A stretch of 40,712 nucleotides of DNA from a virus. The DNA lies in the IMG/VR virus record IMGVR_UViG_3300036466_000091, positions 1-40,712 of that record. One strand, 5' to 3'. The translations under genes were made by a program, and so were the position numbers. Below, piece by piece: positions 2,011 through 25,086 of the stretch (its first letter is position 1; every line of letters begins with the position of its first letter). The notes under the pieces are model-generated. The model saw nothing but the letters and a program-made list of their open reading frames with translations. It did not search any database and was not told where the DNA came from.

Positions 2011-3596
2011 ACAGTCACCGTAATGGATGGGCCATTGCCCGTGATGCGGTTAATCTGGTTGACGGATATTGTAACAGCCCCGCCCGGGTCGGTGACGGTT
2101 AAGCTGCGCGCTGTAGTGGTTTGCGCTGCCCCGTTAATCGATACGCGGTAACCGTCGAAATAAGCGCCCATGCCGATACGCGAACCGCCGCCAAGCCTGC
2201 CGACGCCTTGCCAGTCGATTACCAGCTGGCCGCCCGTGCGCTTAACTCGAAGGTAGGCCGGCTGGCGTTCAATCTGCGAGCGTCCGATAAATGGTGTCGT
2301 GAACACTTCCGACTCTCTGTCAGCGCCAAGCGAAGTGACGCGGAAAGTCAGATCCCGGCCAAGCATAAAAAGGTCGGTGCCGATGTAGGCCATAGAGCTA
2401 AGCGTCAGCATTACAAAGCGCGTACCGACGGGATGCGATACCGATGGGCTACCCTTGCGACCGCGCAGGAAGTAAGAGAGCTCCCACAGTCCCGGCTCAA
2501 TCTCTTCAGCACCAGCGAAGTTGACGATCTCGTCACCGATAAGGCATAGGTTCGCGCGGTTCATCATGCCGGTCAGGGTCGTCTCAAATAGCTCGCTGGT
2601 GTCGCGCAGTAGCCGAACCTGACAGGTATTAACCGCGTCTGGATAGTAGACGCTGCCGGCTGCTAGCGAGGTCTCCAGCACACCCATGACGGTTGGTGCG
2701 CCGCTAGTGTTGCTGTCGATGTAGTTCTCACCACCGTCAAGCGATAGCTCGACCTGGCACCCACGCCACACGTCTGGGCCGTTCGCTGCAAGGTAATAGC
2801 CTAGCGTGTCGTCAGCGTCCTCAAGAATGTGCGAGTCGATGAAGTGCAGAACCGTATCGCCGATGATCAGGGTTGGCGGAACTGATGGTTGATCAATCGG
2901 CACACCGTCAACCGTTGAGCTGTAAGCGCTGGTACGGTCGAATGATGTTTTATACGACTGATAGCCTTCGTTTATATCAATCTCAGTGATGCGCAGCCGC
3001 TCGCCTTCCAGGGTGACGATATCGCCGCACGTCAGCCAAATCCAAGAGTCCGGCAAGCTGAACTCATATCCGCCACGCTGCTCTTCGATCATCACTTTAT
3101 GCTGGATAACGGTCACACGGGCAGCGTCAGCAGTGCGCAGGATAACCGGCGTTTGGTTGCGCTGCTCGCCTAGACTGCGAATGTCTAGCGACCGGTCGCT
3201 GATCTGCTTGTCGGCAGTAAGGCCACCGTCGTAGTCCATGTATTCAAGGAACAGCACGCGAGGAACTTCAATGCTGTCGAGGCGCTCGCTTTTATCAACT
3301 TCACCGCTGTCTTCAACCAAGTCGTCAAGTGTCAGCTCCGCAACAACATCGCCGCCGCGCGGGATCATGTGTAGCTGGCCGTCGTAGTTCACAACGTCGA
3401 ATAGGAACAGGCCCGATAGCTGCTCGATTGTCGTGTATGCGTCTTGGTTGGCGCTGGCCATGATGCCGTCTACGCCGCCTTCGACCAGCTCAAAATCAAG
3501 CGCGTCATAGGGGATGCCGGAACGCGCGCAAACTTCGGCCAGCACTGATGCGATGGCCCAACTTGCAATCGGTTGATCCTGACCACCTGGGCGCAT
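2007..3596 (-). CDS. Tail tip/hub protein, Phage-tail_3 domain (TipJ C-terminal part)
   Basis: 529 residues from the ATG that overlaps the upstream stop (TAATG), with AGG eight bases before it. Frames further upstream overlap the neighbour by 70 bases and are less likely. The first 250 residues (ASVLAEVCARSGIPYDALDF, then FLFDVVNYDGQLHMIPRGG) match the Phage-tail_3 region of GTA/lambda J-like baseplate hub proteins, which form the central tail tip that contacts the host. The C-terminal part looks like beta-sandwich (fibronectin-like) modules ending in TVTDPGGAVTISVNQINR. In related phages this region is usually fused to the N-terminal hub domain. Here that domain is a separate gene (5108-6103), with two other genes between. 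Confidence 0.75.
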   Translation of the reverse strand: MRPGGQDQPIASWAIASVLAEVCARSGIPYDALDFELVEGGVDGIMASANQDAYTTIEQLSGLFLFDVVNYDGQLHMIPRGGDVVAELTLDDLVEDSGEVDKSERLDSIEVPRVLFLEYMDYDGGLTADKQISDRSLDIRSLGEQRNQTPVILRTADAARVTVIQHKVMIEEQRGGYEFSLPDSWIWLTCGDIVTLEGERLRITEIDINEGYQSYKTSFDRTSAYSSTVDGVPIDQPSVPPTLIIGDTVLHFIDSHILEDADDTLGYYLAANGPDVWRGCQVELSLDGGENYIDSNTSGAPTVMGVLETSLAAGSVYYPDAVNTCQVRLLRDTSELFETTLTGMMNRANLCLIGDEIVNFAGAEEIEPGLWELSYFLRGRKGSPSVSHPVGTRFVMLTLSSMAYIGTDLFMLGRDLTFRVTSLGADRESEVFTTPFIGRSQIERQPAYLRVKRTGGQLVIDWQGVGRLGGGSRIGMGAYFDGYRVSINGAAQTTTARSLTVTDPGGAVTISVNQINRITGNGPSITVTV

Positions 3597-8035: not shown

Positions 8036-10341
8036 GCACCAAACCTCGCGCGGCTACGGGATTGCTCTTGCGCCATTTTAGCAGCAATTTGGCTCTGGGT
8101 GCGGCGATCTGGCGTACCTTGAACGATGAAGTTGACCGTTTGATTGGATCCACCGACAGGCATTTGCTGCCCCTTGGTGTGATCGATTACGGTTTCGTTC
8201 GGGTGCATCATCGCCATGAAGCCGCCTTTGCCGTCCAGGCCACCTGCACGCGCACCGCCGCCAGTGAATCCGCCGCCGTCAAAGCTGGCAACCGTCTGGC
8301 CTGCGATCATGCCGGCAGTGACAAAACCCATGCCCATGGCGACGTTAGCGTGCACCTCGCCAGCCGCCAGTAATGCCGGCGCAGCAGGGCCAGACATAGC
8401 GGCCATTTGCGCGTAGGCGACGCGAATCGCCATGGCTGACTGGAAGCCCTGAATGATTGCGTTTGCGCCCGCCAGAGCCTGCGAGAAGATAAAGAACGCA
8501 CGCCCTGCCGCACTGCCTTCGTCGTAAAGGCCCTGCATTGTGCTGATTTGCGCAGACGTGATGCTGATAATGCTCGCTGCTGACGAAAGCGCTTGCTCTT
8601 GGTCGCGAGCCATTGTCTCTTCTAAAATCTGTTGGCGTTGCGCGGAGTAGGCAAGGTCAAGATTAAGCATTGCCTCGTCGTGCATTTGCTTGTTCAGGTA
8701 TTCGGTCTGGTATGCCGCCTCAATGATTGCGCGCTTCTGCTCTTGCTCAACACGCAACCGCTCAAGCTCTGGCGACTCGCCACCCGGCAGGGTTGACATT
8801 GCTTGCTCAAACTCACTACCTGCCGCCTTGCGCGCCTCCATCCGATACAGGGCATCGGACAGACTGTTAACCTGCGCTATCTGCTCGGCGGTTGCGTACT
8901 GGTTAAGGCGTAGCTCGGCCTGGCGCTGTGCTAGTGCATCGGCTGGCAGGGTTGCCTGGTATAGGGATTCGGCGAGGTCGGTGATGACATCAACGTTTGA
9001 CTGTTGATCCTTGGCTAGCTGCTTCGCCTCTTTAATCGCGGCTTTTTGAGCGGCTGTCAGCTTCTCTGTGGCGGTTGATGCTGATTCCGTCCCTACCTTG
9101 TACTTGGCTAAACGGTCGCCATCCTCGCGCTCTCGATTGTCGTATTCTTCTCGAAGCCTTTTAGACTCTTTGATTTGAGAATCAAAGCTATTTAGGGCTG
9201 TATCTCTCTCCTCAAGAATCGATGAAATAGAGCTTTCCCGAGCGTCTCGCGCAATGTTTAGCTCTGTTTCAAGCCTTGCCCCGACGCCAGCAAAAGTGTC
9301 GTTTGTAAAAATTGCGTTTATGCCATCATTGAATGATCGAGCATAAGCCTTTACCTGATCGAAGCCGGACACAATCTCAACTGTCATGATCTGAATCAGT
9401 GCTCTGACGTTTTCCGGCAGATTCCTGAAAGTGTCGATCATGTTTTTTACATTGTTATCTGTCAGCGATGCCCAATAACCGGTCTCATCCTCGAATAACC
9501 CGCTGATAATATTTAGCGACTCGCTAATATCTCGGGAGAAACCGTCAAACTTTCCAGCAATAGCAGATAGCTCGGCCTGCAACTGGCCGGAGGCTACCTG
9601 GTCTGTAAGCTCCTGCATCGCTGCTGTCGCTGTTCTTACCTGCTCCTCAATAAGAGAGCCAACACCAGCCGCGCTAACCTCACGAAAAAGACCGTCCATC
9701 GTGTCGCCAAAGTTTGATAGCGCACCATCAAGCGTGTTTATTCGCTTTTCCATTGCGCCGGCAAACTGGTTTTCACCGATAGATGTTAGGTATCTCTCAA
9801 TCTCTGCGGCGTTCTTGCCGATTGTTGTCGTTACGCCTTGAAACGTAAACGAAACCTTATCGCCTTCGCTCTTAGACTTAATGCCGAACTCTTTTAGGCG
9901 CTCAAATTCACCAGTAGAGGCATCAGCTACAGCCTCGATCATCTGATTTAAGTCTTTACCAAGGGCGGACGCGGTGTTGCCGTAAGAGGTTAATGCCGCT
10001 TCACTTGGTGTCAGGCCGAGGTTTACGAGCTTAGTGAACCCCTCGACCGCTTGGTCAAGTGAGTAAGGCGTCTTGGCTGCAAAGTCTTGAAGCGCCTCGA
10101 AAGCCTTGGCGGCACCCTCGGCGCTACCGGTGGCTGTTTGAAGGCCAGCGTTAAGCACGTCGAATTGACGCTGCACAGCCACGAGCTTAGATAGTGATCC
10201 AGCGATCGTGCCGATAGCGGCTAACGGGCCAAGCAAGTCCTTGATAGTGCCGGTTGCGGTCTTGGCCGTATCACTGAACTGCTTTAGCTCACGCTTTGCG
10301 CCCGCTGCGTCAACGGCTATCTGTAGGCGTGCAATTTCCAA
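8032..10341 (-). CDS. Tail tape measure protein
   Basis: 769 residues, the longest protein of the window. The N-terminus (IDAVDAAGAKRELKQF-type, then TIKDLLGPLAAIGTIAGSL) and the block SLDQAVEGFTKLVNLGLTPS match TP901/lambda-H-type tape measures. Long helical stretches follow, with a charged coiled-coil zone around residues 345-460, and there are hydrophobic, alanine-rich helices near residues 610-690 that could insert in the membrane during DNA entry. The C-terminus is Gly-rich (FDGGGFTGGGARAGGLDGKG) and resembles the usual tape-measure end. At about 0.15 nm per residue the tail would be near 115 nm, an estimate from family rules. Confidence 0.93.
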   Translation of the reverse strand: MEIARLQIAVDAAGAKRELKQFSDTAKTATGTIKDLLGPLAAIGTIAGSLSKLVAVQRQFDVLNAGLQTATGSAEGAAKAFEALQDFAAKTPYSLDQAVEGFTKLVNLGLTPSEAALTSYGNTASALGKDLNQMIEAVADASTGEFERLKEFGIKSKSEGDKVSFTFQGVTTTIGKNAAEIERYLTSIGENQFAGAMEKRINTLDGALSNFGDTMDGLFREVSAAGVGSLIEEQVRTATAAMQELTDQVASGQLQAELSAIAGKFDGFSRDISESLNIISGLFEDETGYWASLTDNNVKNMIDTFRNLPENVRALIQIMTVEIVSGFDQVKAYARSFNDGINAIFTNDTFAGVGARLETELNIARDARESSISSILEERDTALNSFDSQIKESKRLREEYDNREREDGDRLAKYKVGTESASTATEKLTAAQKAAIKEAKQLAKDQQSNVDVITDLAESLYQATLPADALAQRQAELRLNQYATAEQIAQVNSLSDALYRMEARKAAGSEFEQAMSTLPGGESPELERLRVEQEQKRAIIEAAYQTEYLNKQMHDEAMLNLDLAYSAQRQQILEETMARDQEQALSSAASIISITSAQISTMQGLYDEGSAAGRAFFIFSQALAGANAIIQGFQSAMAIRVAYAQMAAMSGPAAPALLAAGEVHANVAMGMGFVTAGMIAGQTVASFDGGGFTGGGARAGGLDGKGGFMAMMHPNETVIDHTKGQQMPVGGSNQTVNFIVQGTPDRRTQSQIAAKMAQEQSRSRARFGA

Positions 10342-21420: not shown

Positions 21421-21448
21421 AGTATACCGCATTGCGCGGTGGCGTCTA
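21421..21448 (-). promoter_or_regulatory. Leftward promoter for the 20889 accessory gene
   Basis: Minus strand: -35 TAGACG, a 16-bp spacer, -10 TATACT then AGGC. It overlaps the stop codon of the terminase gene, as the promoter at 18340 overlaps the MuF stop. Confidence 0.7.
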
Positions 21449-22720
21449 GTAACTAAACCGAATCGGAGTGTGAATCACTGGCTTGCTGATTGGCATCTCG
21501 TAGGATATCGGATAACCGGAGGCGTCGTTCTGATGGTCGTTGCCAGATGACTTGTCAGGCTCACCGTTTGAGTCATACGCCTGCTGCTCAAGACAGCGCG
21601 CAGTGGTAGGGCATAGCTTATCGTTGACGAACAGACGTCCCTTGCTAAACGCCGTGTTCATAGACAGCAGGCGGTCTTTAACGGCTGGGTTCTTGCTCTT
21701 GGCGCGAACCTCGAAGCGTGCCTGCTGCAATAGCGCAATGTCTGAGCTGCTGGCATCAACCGATTTACGACTCCCGCCACTGGCGTCAGGGTAGACAATG
21801 ATCCGGTGCCCTTGCGCCTGCCACTTTTCCTGAATGATGCGCACCATGTCCGGCGTATCGAGAATGTCCTTTAGCTCTGCGACGGCGTGCCAGGTTTCTC
21901 CTCGGATAACGTAAACCGTCGCGGCCATGCGCTGAACGTTGAAGTCCATTCCGATGTACAGCGGTTCGTTAGGCTGGATTACCTCGGTGGACCGGCATCG
22001 CACACGGTCATAGCTGCGATAAACTGTCCCGCTAATCAGGTTTACAAACTGGCCGCGCAAGTAGGCATCGATCAGCTCTTCTGGATACGTCTCGACCAGT
22101 GAAGGAATGTAGTCGGCTGGCAGGTTCTTGGCGTTGTCATAGGTGCTGGCCTGAATCATGCCGTATCGTTCGCGGATCTCAGGTCGATCATTGCAGGCGA
22201 CCACGAACATCTTATGCGTGAACTTGAAACCCTCTGGTGTCGTGGTGACGTCCACGCCATTGCGTAAGCCTTCCTGGTTGTAGCGCATACGGGCGATGAT
22301 CTTGCGCCACGCTGCCTCTGCCTTGTCGGCCTTCATTACGTCCAACTCATCAACCAAGGCGTTGCCAATCTTGAAGCCGACGATGGTTTCCGGGCGCTCC
22401 ATAGACCGGCAGATAGTGGTGCCTCGGTACTTTGCGCCGCTGTAGAAGTGCACCTCCTTGTTACCCTCGCGCACCTCTACCCGCTGACCCATCTGGAATG
22501 CGACTTCCTCAATGGTCGGGTAAAAGATGTCGCGGATCTGCGCGTAGGTCGGCGCGAAGTAGCCCTGGTTAATGCCAGGGAACTCCCAATACTGCTGGCA
22601 TTGCGCCATTGAGCCAACCCAAGTCTTACCCGAGCCGAAGCCGGCAACGAATGCGCGGAACTTCTGAGGCATCGCAAGGAACTGGCCCTGCGGTTTGTTA
22701 GCCTTCGCGGTTACTTGCAT
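21446..22720 (-). CDS. terL: Terminase large subunit
   Basis: 424 residues from the ATG that lies inside the small-subunit end, with AGG six bases upstream; a TTG two codons earlier is the alternative. Walker A is GFGSGKTW (about residues 27-34) and Walker B is in NALVDELDVM. The C-terminal nuclease has acidic residues in YIGMDFNV, IVYPDASGG and NDHQNDASGY. This is the ATP-driven packaging motor with an RNase H-like nuclease that cuts concatemers. It forms the usual pair with the small subunit and is followed by an accessory cassette instead of the portal gene. Confidence 0.95.
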   Translation of the reverse strand: MQVTAKANKPQGQFLAMPQKFRAFVAGFGSGKTWVGSMAQCQQYWEFPGINQGYFAPTYAQIRDIFYPTIEEVAFQMGQRVEVREGNKEVHFYSGAKYRGTTICRSMERPETIVGFKIGNALVDELDVMKADKAEAAWRKIIARMRYNQEGLRNGVDVTTTPEGFKFTHKMFVVACNDRPEIRERYGMIQASTYDNAKNLPADYIPSLVETYPEELIDAYLRGQFVNLISGTVYRSYDRVRCRSTEVIQPNEPLYIGMDFNVQRMAATVYVIRGETWHAVAELKDILDTPDMVRIIQEKWQAQGHRIIVYPDASGGSRKSVDASSSDIALLQQARFEVRAKSKNPAVKDRLLSMNTAFSKGRLFVNDKLCPTTARCLEQQAYDSNGEPDKSSGNDHQNDASGYPISYEMPISKPVIHTPIRFSY

Positions 22721-23141
22721 CTTCAACCTGAATGATTACGCGAACCGGTGCGGCTTGCTCAGCTTCCTTCTCGACTGCTTTGTCCAGGCCGGCCAGCTTT
22801 GCGCGGCCCATCACAGCTGCAACTGCGGCGCTGCACTGCGGAGTATCAGCGCCAAGCGCGATCAACTTAATCTCAGTCAGCTCTTCTAGAAGAGACTCAA
22901 CACTAATCATGTACCTCTCCCGCAATTCTTTGCGTAATTCTTCTGCGTACTCTTGCATAGCCGGGGCGCGGAACAATCGAGACGCCATGCTCCCGGCTGA
23001 CTGCCGACTCGCATTCCCGCCGAAAATATCGTAATAGTGGTCGGCAAGGTCTTTTGTTTTCTTCACGTCATAGACGACTGCCTGCACGAATGCGCGGTTT
23101 CTGTCTGTCTGGCTGACTGTGCCGTCTTGGTGTTTGCTCAT
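22698..23141 (-). CDS. terS: Terminase small subunit
   Basis: 147 residues from the ATG overlapping the preceding stop (ATGA); an upstream extension of 21 codons lies inside that gene and is rejected. Residues 10-60 (TDRNRAFVQAVVYDVKKTKD then YYDIFGGNASRQSAGSMASR) form a helix-turn-helix suited to pac or cos recognition. They are followed by a helical region (EYAEELRKELRERYMISVES) and an acidic tail. Position before TerL and size are as expected. I could not identify the pac or cos sequence it would bind. Confidence 0.85.
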   Translation of the reverse strand: MSKHQDGTVSQTDRNRAFVQAVVYDVKKTKDLADHYYDIFGGNASRQSAGSMASRLFRAPAMQEYAEELRKELRERYMISVESLLEELTEIKLIALGADTPQCSAAVAAVMGRAKLAGLDKAVEKEAEQAAPVRVIIQVEDASNREG

Positions 23142-23305
23142 TTCTGAATCTGCCTGCACTCGAAGCCAGTGCGGCGCAGCGTGAATGAGTGCCCATACTT
23201 GCAATCGTTCGCAATCGACTGGCGCTCAGCAGCCGCACCAACCTCTTTGCCGACGAACATGCCCAGCACGCACGCCAGTGCAATCCCTGCAATCCATCCG
23301 CCCAT
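23138..23305 (-). CDS. Small membrane protein before terminase
   Basis: 55 residues; the start overlaps the upstream stop (TAATG) and the stop overlaps the terS ATG (ATGA). The N-terminus WIAGIALACVLGMFVGKEVG is a single membrane span; then comes a basic segment with two cysteines (NDCKYGHSF and FECRQIQK). The arrangement, a membrane span then a short soluble tail, resembles several small phage proteins near the lysis or terminase genes. The function is unknown. Confidence 0.65.
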   Translation of the reverse strand: MGGWIAGIALACVLGMFVGKEVGAAAERQSIANDCKYGHSFTLRRTGFECRQIQK

Positions 23306-23828: not shown

Positions 23829-23980
23829 TTTCCTGTCGCCTTTGCATACCATTTCTGCGCGCCGGCTTGTGTCTTGAAGTTCTTGCTGCGAGTGAATGTC
23901 ATTGCTGTAAAAGTTCCGTCACGCTCGGCAATGATGCCAGTGCTGATTTGCTCGTTATTTCCAAGGTTCAAGGTTTTCAT
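23825..23980 (-). CDS. Small phage protein of unknown function
   Basis: 51 residues, MKTLNLGNNEQISTGIIAER then GTFTAMTFTRSKNFKTQAGA and a basic end KWYAKATGK. The repeated T-F-T strand followed by S-K-x-F-K-T is a pattern seen in small phage proteins that carry a short beta sheet and helix. It is the first gene after the promoter at 24017-24044, and its stop overlaps the next start (ATGA). No function is assigned. Confidence 0.6.
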   Translation of the reverse strand: MKTLNLGNNEQISTGIIAERDGTFTAMTFTRSKNFKTQAGAQKWYAKATGK

Positions 23981-24016
23981 TTAGGTTACTCCGTAGCTGC
24001 TTGTCTGTATGTGTCT

Positions 24017-24044
24017 AGTATACAGCAGCCATACACACCGTCTA
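24017..24044 (-). promoter_or_regulatory. Leftward promoter for the pre-terminase genes
   Basis: Minus strand: -35 TAGACG, a 16-bp spacer, -10 TATACT then AGAC, the early-class pattern. It lies about 40 bases before the first small gene and just after the terminator of RNA B. Confidence 0.7.
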
Positions 24045-24062
24045 GTTTTATTTTCAGAAGGC

Positions 24063-24103
24063 AAGAAAAACCCCAGCGTTACCCGAAGGTAAGAGGCCGG
24101 GGG
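24063..24103 (-). terminator. Terminator with UUCG-loop hairpin after RNA B
   Basis: Minus strand: CCCC and GGGG enclose an inner hairpin TTACC-TTCG-GGTAA, followed by TTTTTCTT. It ends the RNA B transcript. Confidence 0.8.
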
Positions 24104-24112
24104 CATGTTGCT

Positions 24113-24180
24113 GCCATAGTCTCACCCAGTGCGGCGAATCTGCACGCTATCCGCCTGGGTTCCTGCGCGCTGCGTATGGC
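24113..24180 (-). ncRNA. C4/CI-type antisense immunity RNA, copy B
   Basis: A 68-nt element with a closed outer stem (GCCATA with TATGGC). An inner stem ACCCAG/CTGGGT is extended, past a one-base bulge, by GCGG/CCGC. A 16-nt apical loop contains ATAGCG. The 68-nt length, the GGAACCC and GGGTGAGAC boxes and the closing stem resemble the C4 RNA of P1 and the CI RNA of P4, which are about 70-80 nt and act on their own leader. Against copy A, five pairs change on both sides while pairing is kept. The G-U pair in copy A fixes the minus strand as the RNA strand. Its own promoter and terminator flank it. Confidence 0.7.
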
Positions 24181-24254
24181 TTTACCGCGTGTGCGGGCTT
24201 CGGCTTCCTTTCGGATCGCATCGGGCGCGATAAACCGACTTCCCCCGTATATGT

Positions 24255-24277
24255 CGGATAGCTGAGGAGGCTATCCG
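24255..24277 (-). repeat. Inverted repeat in the RNA B leader, complementary to RNA B
   Basis: On the minus strand CGGATAGC and GCTATCCG pair across seven bases. GCTATCCG is also exactly complementary to CGGATAGC inside copy B (element positions 28-35). This could be a target comparable to seqA of P4, so the leader may either fold on itself or pair with the RNA. Confidence 0.45.
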
Positions 24278-24305
24278 GGTATCACTGGATGCAGTCACGT
24301 TGCTA

Positions 24306-24334
24306 ATTATAGCCATTAGCCATGCAATAAAAAA
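24306..24334 (-). promoter_or_regulatory. Leftward promoter for RNA B
   Basis: Minus strand: perfect -10 TATAAT (24311-24306) with a 17-bp spacer to TTTTTT, which is the T-run of the RNA A terminator serving as a weak -35. The start would fall near 24299, giving an RNA of about 235 nt up to the terminator. Confidence 0.5.
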
Positions 24335-24383
24335 GCCCCAGCGCCGCGCTGTCAGGATCGCTGACGCTCTTCGTGTGGGGCCG
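24327..24383 (-). terminator. Terminator after RNA A
   Basis: Minus strand: GCCCCA and TGGGGC close a long stem that holds an inner hairpin GTCAG-CGATC-CTGAC; the tail is TTTTTTATT. Confidence 0.8.
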
Positions 24384-24448
24384 TGTTGCATGTCGGCGGC
24401 GATTTGAGCATAGCTAAGTAGCGCTAGAGGCGTGCCGCCTTGTTTGGT

Positions 24449-24516
24449 GCCAGGGTCTCACCCGATACAGCAAATCCACACGCTATCTGCTCGGGTTCCT
24501 GCGTGTTGCGCCTGGC
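24449..24516 (-). ncRNA. C4/CI-type antisense immunity RNA, copy A
   Basis: A 68-nt element aligned without gaps to copy B (52 of 68 identical). The outer stem is GCCAGG with CCTGGC, the inner stem ACCCGA with TCGGGT, and the extension GCAG pairs with TTGC-type bases through one G-U. Ten of the sixteen differences form five compensated pairs, one makes the G-U pair, and the other five lie in loops. Its terminator is 65 bases further on. It has no obvious separate promoter and would be made from the early leftward transcript. The C4 assignment rests on memory of the family plus structure; no search was run. Confidence 0.65.
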
Positions 24517-24885
24517 AAAAAGGTAATGAATGGGCCGGAGCTGATCCCGGCATACATGAGCGCTTAAACGTGTCACCACAATAAGCATTCCATTCATTCG
24601 GCTGGTGACTGTCCAGTGTTGCGCGATCTAAGCCGCCATTACTGGTGCGCATCAATCACCATGCGAATAAATCCCCGTCTTTCCGGGGCGTCAGATCGAA
24701 TCGAGCCTCGTGATCAGCGAGAGAAAGAGGTGCATCCACCTTGCTCTAAACCAAATCCAGGGGCCGCTGTGTCGGGGAGTATGCCGACCTTCGCAAAGCT
24801 ACCCAGTCGTTTCGCGTTTGGCCTCACGCGGCGCATTTAAGCGCTAGTGTGTGCGAGGCTTGAGGATAGCGCCAAGACTGCTCAG
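24517..24885 (-). other. Non-coding leader upstream of RNA A
   Basis: No convincing gene is present. A nine-base inverted repeat (AATGAATGG at 24525-24533 and CCATTCATT at 24590-24598) and a strong CCCCG/CGGGG hairpin at 24673-24688 suggest a folded RNA leader. The open frame at 24458-24655 crosses RNA A and shows no family. Confidence 0.5.
24665..24690 (-). terminator. Terminator-like hairpin after the early leftward genes
   Basis: Minus strand: CCCCG and CGGGG pair around GAAAGA and are followed by ATTTATT. The T-run is imperfect, so it may only attenuate transcription into the RNA A leader. Confidence 0.45.
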
Positions 24886-25086
24886 TTACAAGCGATTGAA
24901 CACTGTGCAGAACACAACACTTCCAGGCTGATCTTTTAATTTTTCCTCTGCGCTTTCCTTTGCGCAATCAAAAATAGAATCAACATTTTCGAACCATGAT
25001 CTTGCTGTAACTGTCATGCTGTTTTCTGCGTACCGGCCATTATCAGCAGTCTTTCTGAAAACCATGAAATAAGATCGCTTAATCAT
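24886..25086 (-). CDS. Small early protein of unknown function
   Basis: 66 residues; the ATG overlaps the upstream stop (ATGA). It reads MIKRSYFMVFRKTADNGRYA then ARSWFENVDSIFDCAKESAE, a short alpha/beta sequence with conserved aromatic residues. No family is recognised. It is the last protein gene of the early leftward run before the C4-like RNAs. Coupling to the upstream membrane protein suggests they are made together. Confidence 0.55.
   Translation of the reverse strand: MIKRSYFMVFRKTADNGRYAENSMTVTARSWFENVDSIFDCAKESAEEKLKDQPGSVVFCTVFNRL

Follow-up and report, generated by a model that had tools for sequence, protein, structure and literature searches.

RNA68, a previously uncatalogued family of compact pseudoknotted noncoding RNA from phages and a Pseudomonas megaplasmid

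Among the described small RNAs closest to the element analysed here, the put RNAs of phage HK022, about 70 nt long and present as two similar copies per phage, suppress terminators without the help of a phage protein (PMC9378689). The C4 RNAs (RF01695; P1, P4 CI and N15) are short, processed phage RNAs with a closing stem; RNase P cuts them at the 5' end of their P1 stem, and their a'/b' loops are complementary to a target mRNA nearby. The abiF RNA (RF03085), small and structured, has conserved unpaired boxes and is arranged as a promoter–RNA–terminator unit; its C. difficile representative, RCd22, neutralises the AbiF toxin by direct binding, both in cis and in trans (PMC12373285). ToxI and pseudo-ToxI (type III; phage PhiTE) are intergenic, phage-carried RNAs that form an H-type pseudoknot, and the RNA anti-CRISPRs (Racrs, solitary repeat units) are phage noncoding RNAs that mimic an RNA of host defence. 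Phages are known to make RNAs that mimic antitoxins, and others that mimic CRISPR repeats (PMC3475682, PMC10651486).

RNA68 is a previously uncatalogued family of compact pseudoknotted noncoding RNA of about 70 nt. With HK022 put it shares its size, the occurrence of two diverged copies in one phage and the proximity of terminators, but put consists of two stem-loops, whereas RNA68 is an enclosed, covarying pseudoknot. It resembles C4 as a short phage RNA with a closing stem; C4, however, comprises three stem-loops. The likeness to abiF lies in the small structured RNA, the conserved unpaired boxes and the promoter–RNA–terminator arrangement, but abiF is a single hairpin of different sequence, and RNA68 has no adjoining toxin gene and no host system was found for it. 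ToxI, too, is a phage-borne H-type pseudoknot between genes; by description, it is a tandem repeat of ~36 nt, whereas RNA68 is ~70 nt long, closed by an outer stem (P1) and usually single. A pseudoknotted RNA unit, as found in RNA68, is in any case a feature common to many kinds of RNA, and where type III systems place the RNA upstream of a toxin gene, the genes downstream of RNA68 encode holin or terminase, HNH or unknown products. Racrs exemplify the mimicry of a host-defence RNA that is proposed below for RNA68, but they do so by copying CRISPR repeats. No description of RNA68 was found in the open-access papers searched.

Fold and covariation of RNA68

The starting point was a virus record of 40,712 nt (IMGVR_UViG_3300036466_000091; hereafter the window). 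Its minus strand at 24180-24113 (copy 1) and 24516-24449 (copy 2) aligns without gaps, with 52 of 68 positions identical, exactly at the coordinates and on the strand given by an earlier note on this DNA; in a search of 23900-25000 with a repeat finder, this pair (starting at 24113 and 24449) is the sole direct repeat. The five compensated pairs that had been claimed, 5/64 and 6/63 in the outer stem and 25/53, 26/52 and 29/48 in the inner stem, are real. Of the five differences that had been assigned to loops, those at positions 40 and 45 are indeed unpaired, but those at 11, 39 and 13 are engaged in a 6-bp pseudoknot (11-16/34-39) that had not been seen: 11 pairs with 39, as G-C in copy 1 and as A-U in copy 2, which adds a sixth doubly compensated pair, and 13 stays paired with 37 through a change from G-U to A-U. 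The 16 differences between copies thus divide into 12 that make up six compensated pairs, two that are one-sided with pairing retained, and two at unpaired positions. The original observation is therefore confirmed, and is stronger than had been claimed.

RNA68 comprises four helices: P1 (1-6/63-68), the pseudoknot helix (11-16/34-39), P2 (22-26/52-56) and P3 (27-30/47-50). Together these make up an H-type pseudoknot, formed by 11-16/34-39 and P2–P3 and enclosed by the outer stem P1, and they leave the conserved boxes CGCA, AGGAA, ATA and TGAGAC unpaired. All four are present in copy 1 (24113..24180, minus strand; 85.7 bits in cmsearch, as a training sequence of the model), where the 5' arm of the pseudoknot (24165..24170, minus strand) pairs with the 3' arm in the P3 loop (24142..24147, minus strand), the helix being marked out by covariation. 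Copy 2 (24449..24516, minus strand; 84.8 bits, likewise a training sequence) has the same fold with the six doubly compensated pairs.

The folding energy of the copies lends no support when compared with shuffled sequences (z of -0.7 and -0.9). Since minimum free energy is no different from that of shuffles, the case for an RNA fold rests on covariation. The earlier note had proposed such a check over a wider alignment of homologues, and its outcome is clear: in an alignment of 19 members (A7), standard pairs occupy 97.1% of pair cells and double compensatory changes occur at 19 of 21 pairs, values reached in 0 of 500 shuffles, although kinship among the contigs inflates these shuffle controls and, A7 having been fitted to P1, P2 and P3, the counts for those helices lean towards the model. 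When pair partners in A7 were slid as a control, the signal fell to near zero. Safer measures are how varied the pair types are and the result for the pseudoknot, which was never part of the alignment model: over 18 distinct sequences, 100% of its cells are paired, and five of the six pairs have changed on both sides. Its arms read, for example, GUACAC/GUGUAU in Pseudomonas phage vB_PsaM_M1, GCUAGC/GCUAGU in contig L333 and GCAAGC/GCUUGC in contig L002. A coding explanation is rejected: indels of 1-3 nt separate the members, which are 67-72 nt long, and the changes between them track pairing. With 19 members and the additional pseudoknot, a selected RNA fold on the minus strand is very strongly supported.

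Members of the family and their surroundings

Beyond the two copies in the window, 17 members were identified. IMG/VR phage contigs account for 15 of them; the other two come from an isolated phage and a Pseudomonas megaplasmid. Degenerate DNA patterns run over IMG/VR yielded the first homologues (L001, L002 and L013), the other initial pattern matches being coding repeats or chance. A covariance model built from three sequences (R1) confirmed pattern matches in L329-L336 and L343, and a second model (R2) then confirmed L396, L407 and L412. The megaplasmid copy (locus L344; Pseudomonas silesiensis, NZ_CP143488.1) was found by BLAST, and the isolate copy (L367; vB_PsaM_M1, OP714164.2 39205-39274, 66.9 bits; host Pseudomonas sp. 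ZM01) by running a model over entire phage records. True members score at least 66 bits with R2, L396 and L367 standing outside its training set; matches in H35 (Manatee Spring phage) and H30 (ZC03) were set aside as chance. BLAST comparisons of distant members show identity across the ~70-nt RNA only, and it stops near the RNA ends. Among the records searched, the window alone holds two copies.

Searches with described RNA models were negative. At gathering cut-off, none of the 4227 models of Rfam 15 matched over RNA68 in the window or in 12 member loci; permissive Rfam searches of six stretches gave nothing convincing over RNA68, and nothing at E 10 around the copies in the window. A tRNA/tmRNA search likewise had no match over RNA68, and BLASTN of the entire intergenic region of the window against phages and plasmids returned nothing useful. 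When the RNA models were run over 391 + 399 + 395 + 37 genomes under strict filters, all matches stayed below 30 bits and were taken as chance, the best one lying inside a chemoreceptor gene. In ~1,200 genomes of three orders there was no host counterpart of RNA68 adjoining a toxin or defence gene, nor was a host counterpart found by BLAST in an E. coli collection. This lack of a host version weighs little, because the ~1,200 genomes are a sample, the filters were strict and Pseudomonas was not singled out.

In most phage contigs RNA68 lies between early genes and a terminase/holin operon, often with the order holin-terS-terL, and the terminase families beside it are unrelated (PHROG 2/10250, 3717 and 979). 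Relatives of the window's TerL lack RNA68, so the RNA does not follow that terminase. In the window, both copies lie in an intergenic stretch of ~0.9 kb on the late-gene strand, between small early-type genes and terS/terL/portal; the small terminase subunit (22698..23204, minus strand; PHROG 51) and the large subunit (21446-22726; PHROG 2/10250) are the first identifiable late genes downstream. Directly after copy 1 there is an intrinsic terminator (24066..24103, minus strand; hairpin and T-run). Copy 2 is followed directly by a degenerate abiF-like hairpin (24395..24439, minus strand), recognised by its pattern (GGCGGC-A-CGCCT...GCTCAAATC-GCCGCC) and too degenerate for Rfam, which gave no match, and then by a terminator-like element (24324..24389, minus strand) whose sequence is conserved with L332 at 84% identity. 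A conserved 5' domain before copy 2 (24517..24621, minus strand) is likewise common to the window and L332; read from its sequence, it has complementary stretches at its two ends (AATGAATGG / CCATTCATT). Because L332 has a single RNA68 between flanks that match the outer ones of the pair in the window, the window resembles a unit to which a second copy was added.

Promoters were scored with approximate sigma-70 weights drawn from general knowledge. For copy 1, a promoter is predicted at 24306..24333 (minus strand; TTTTTA-16-TATAAT, with TATAAT at 24306-24311), starting ~118 nt upstream of the RNA; 60 stretches sampled from the record all scored lower. Another is predicted between the terminator of copy 1 and the late genes (24016..24043, minus strand; TAGACG-16-TATACT; top 4% of random stretches). 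Of the 17 phage copies scanned on their 3' side, 10 have an intrinsic terminator 21-166 nt after RNA68 and two more have one at 232 and 376 nt; at four loci the terminator is followed by a promoter-like site whose score ranks in the top 1-4% of random stretches. With terminators after the RNA and promoter-like sites beyond, RNA68 units look autonomous.

Two contigs, L333 and L343, show a reversed order with respect to other members: a terminator-like hairpin and T-run lie ~12 nt before RNA68, with a strong promoter-like site ~115-120 nt upstream of it, and no such hairpin turned up in the 450 nt that follow RNA68. L333 also has a group I intron (3302-3527; RF00028, 75 bits) after an HNH-type frame, with the long terL frame directly downstream of the intron. 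In vB_PsaM_M1, RNA68 is situated in ~0.7 kb of DNA that is largely without annotation, ahead of tRNA-Pro, tRNA-Asn and tRNA-Thr and more than 4 kb before terL; a hypothetical gene (UZS00911.1; OP714164.2:38756-39220) on the opposite strand overlaps its first 16 nt and may be an over-annotation. The copy in the P. silesiensis megaplasmid has no recognisable toxin adjoining. Upstream of it (L344:5541-6623) lies a gene for an HNH protein like type IV restriction enzymes (PADLOC mREase_IV), of which a paralogue without the HNH part is encoded downstream of RNA68.

The 3' flanks are mosaics in which the identity and order of modules differ between phages. An abiF-type element lies 6 nt 3' of RNA68 in L330 and L331, 122 nt in L335 and 328 nt in L412; a second module, MB, is at +2 in L334 and at +327 in L396. 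A third, MC (~110 nt), is structured, with compensatory changes visible in its three sequences, and occurs ~70 to 250 nt after RNA68 in two phages (L396 and L412) and the Pseudomonas megaplasmid (L344:8100-8310). Yet another conserved stretch, element 2 (ATYGAAAGGCYGGAYACNAC...), is found just 3' of RNA68 at L329:3497, L344:8065 and L367:1568 (vB_PsaM_M1), in records that are otherwise different. In L334 (+112) and L335 (+30) the sequence GGCTGRTGACGATCAGCTAAAGYCGTCC (E3) has a loop, GACG, that could pair with a following CGTC; this could form a small H-type pseudoknot-like hairpin reminiscent of type III antitoxin units.

The abiF-type elements are clearer in these contigs than in the window. 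They were located in L335 (6690-6732, minus strand; 28.3 bits with RF03085, E 0.0035 against all Rfam), L412 (12666-12709, minus strand; 26.1 bits, E 0.018), L331 (3391-3431, plus strand; 20.3 bits) and L330 (908-945, minus strand; boxes as in the other elements), all scores being below the gathering cut-off of 37 bits and the contigs partly related. All four carry the boxes AAGCCTATG...GCTCAAAT and double as terminators. In a sample of 342 genomes, host abiF RNAs share these boxes (CCAAGCCTATG...GCTCAAATCG), and the ones displayed have a T-run at their end; in both genomes searched for Abi_2, the gene lies just downstream of the RNA. One of these two RNAs, 144 nt before its Abi_2 match, scores 34.7 bits, also below 37. 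A search of 12 phage records, several of them fragments and L412 not among them, turned up no Abi_2 gene. Because they have host-type boxes, because no Abi_2 was found with them and because RCd22 works in trans, the phage elements look like orphan antitoxins and are candidates for that role.

Possible modes of action

The conserved boxes and compact fold, set against helices whose sequence is free to change, favour a protein-binding RNA. The varied context, the autonomous-looking units and the abiF-type neighbours make action in trans the likeliest reading: RNA68 would be a noncoding RNA domain that most probably serves as a protein-binding decoy against host defence, a proposal we advance tentatively. 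The phage RNA would occupy an RNA-regulated host defence protein, as a decoy or as a mimic of its antitoxin. We infer that RNA68 is transcribed, that it binds protein and that a defence protein is its target. The argument from the abiF-type neighbours is weak, being one of guilt by association. Against the decoy stand the missing host counterpart in the genomes sampled, the lack of a recognisable toxin next to the megaplasmid copy, abiF-type scores under the gathering cut-off in partly related contigs, and the degeneracy of the abiF-like hairpin in the window. The unrelated terminases and the setting in vB_PsaM_M1 fit action in trans, and the latter, before a tRNA cluster, argues against a dedicated late-operon leader; the recurrent placement ahead of the late operon would suit action in cis as well.

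The main mechanistic rival is such an action in cis, with nascent RNA68 binding host RNA polymerase in the manner of put and promoting read-through of the following terminator into the late genes. Size and the two copies resemble HK022 put, most members stand just before the terminase/holin operon with intrinsic terminators after them, and the spacing between RNA and terminator, from 21 to more than 300 nt without overlap, is what processive antitermination allows and a riboswitch-type switch does not. However, the copy in vB_PsaM_M1 precedes a tRNA cluster rather than a late operon, the plasmid copy is without late genes, and the hairpin of L333 and L343 precedes the RNA. At the four loci with strong promoter-like sites beyond the terminator, read-through would be unnecessary. 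The RNA68 model also finds nothing in the complete HK022 record, and put, for which PMC9378689 mentions no pseudoknot, is built differently. We consider this mechanism unlikely.

The main structural rival, to which we also give only a small chance, is that RNA68 belongs, as a recurrent domain, to larger and perhaps ornate noncoding RNAs of phages, comparable to GOLLD or ROOL, with a structural or tRNA-linked role and none in anti-defence. The noncoding stretches of 0.2-0.9 kb around RNA68 do carry more conserved structured modules, and that of the isolate precedes a tRNA cluster, a position in which GOLLD-type RNAs are known. But the modules vary and are reordered between phages, unlike the parts of a single large conserved RNA; among the large RNAs of Rfam, GOLLD and ROOL included, none matched; and several loci have a terminator within 20-60 nt after RNA68.

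An antisense-type regulatory RNA acting in the C4/CI mode, by base-pairing with phage or host mRNA, appears improbable. The earlier note had seen a resemblance to C4/CI immunity RNAs; RNA68 is indeed short, structured, phage-borne and of C4/CI-like size, and two diverged copies could mean two targets. Yet the C4 model (RF01695) is silent in the window, L331 and L336, whereas it recovers its positive controls from P4 (74.9 bits), N15 (78.8 bits) and P1 (68.8 bits); conversely, the RNA68 model finds nothing at the P1, P4 and N15 C4 loci, and the GGAACCC and GGGTGAGAC boxes on which the likeness had been based are absent within these C4 RNAs. Nor is there a clear antisense target: in the window phage the longest complements are 11-14 nt and none is clearly above shuffles, copy 1 having none above them and copy 2 a 14-nt match inside a coding gene at 8875, with shuffles reaching up to 12. 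Moreover, the unpaired positions of RNA68 are conserved, whereas antisense loops vary with their targets. Least probable of all is a riboswitch-like attenuator, a ligand- or protein-sensing leader of the late operon, which the compact pseudoknot, conserved unpaired boxes and downstream terminators would suit but which is opposed by the lack of overlap or consistent spacing between RNA68 and terminator, by the absence of a conserved gene immediately downstream in all members, and by the different contexts in the isolate and the plasmid.

Returning to the decoy reading, an extension of it that we hold possible, and more speculative, is that gammaproteobacterial phages carry shuffling arrays of small structured RNA decoys, each directed against a different RNA-regulated defence, with the abiF-type elements as modules that can be recognised and RNA68 as one that is widespread. 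Such arrays would sit where early genes give way to late ones, or ahead of tRNA clusters, and it is conceivable, at the same level of confidence, that the target of RNA68 is an undescribed defence protein.

RNA68 adds to the known RNAs a pseudoknotted family that is absent from Rfam 15 and shows covariation in every helix, and since it is present in an isolated phage it is testable at once. Finding abiF-type RNAs in phage contigs without finding Abi_2 there is the pattern expected if phages disarm RNA-restrained defences by means of RNA mimics. If RNA68 is such a mimic, its protein partner would identify an as yet undescribed host defence.
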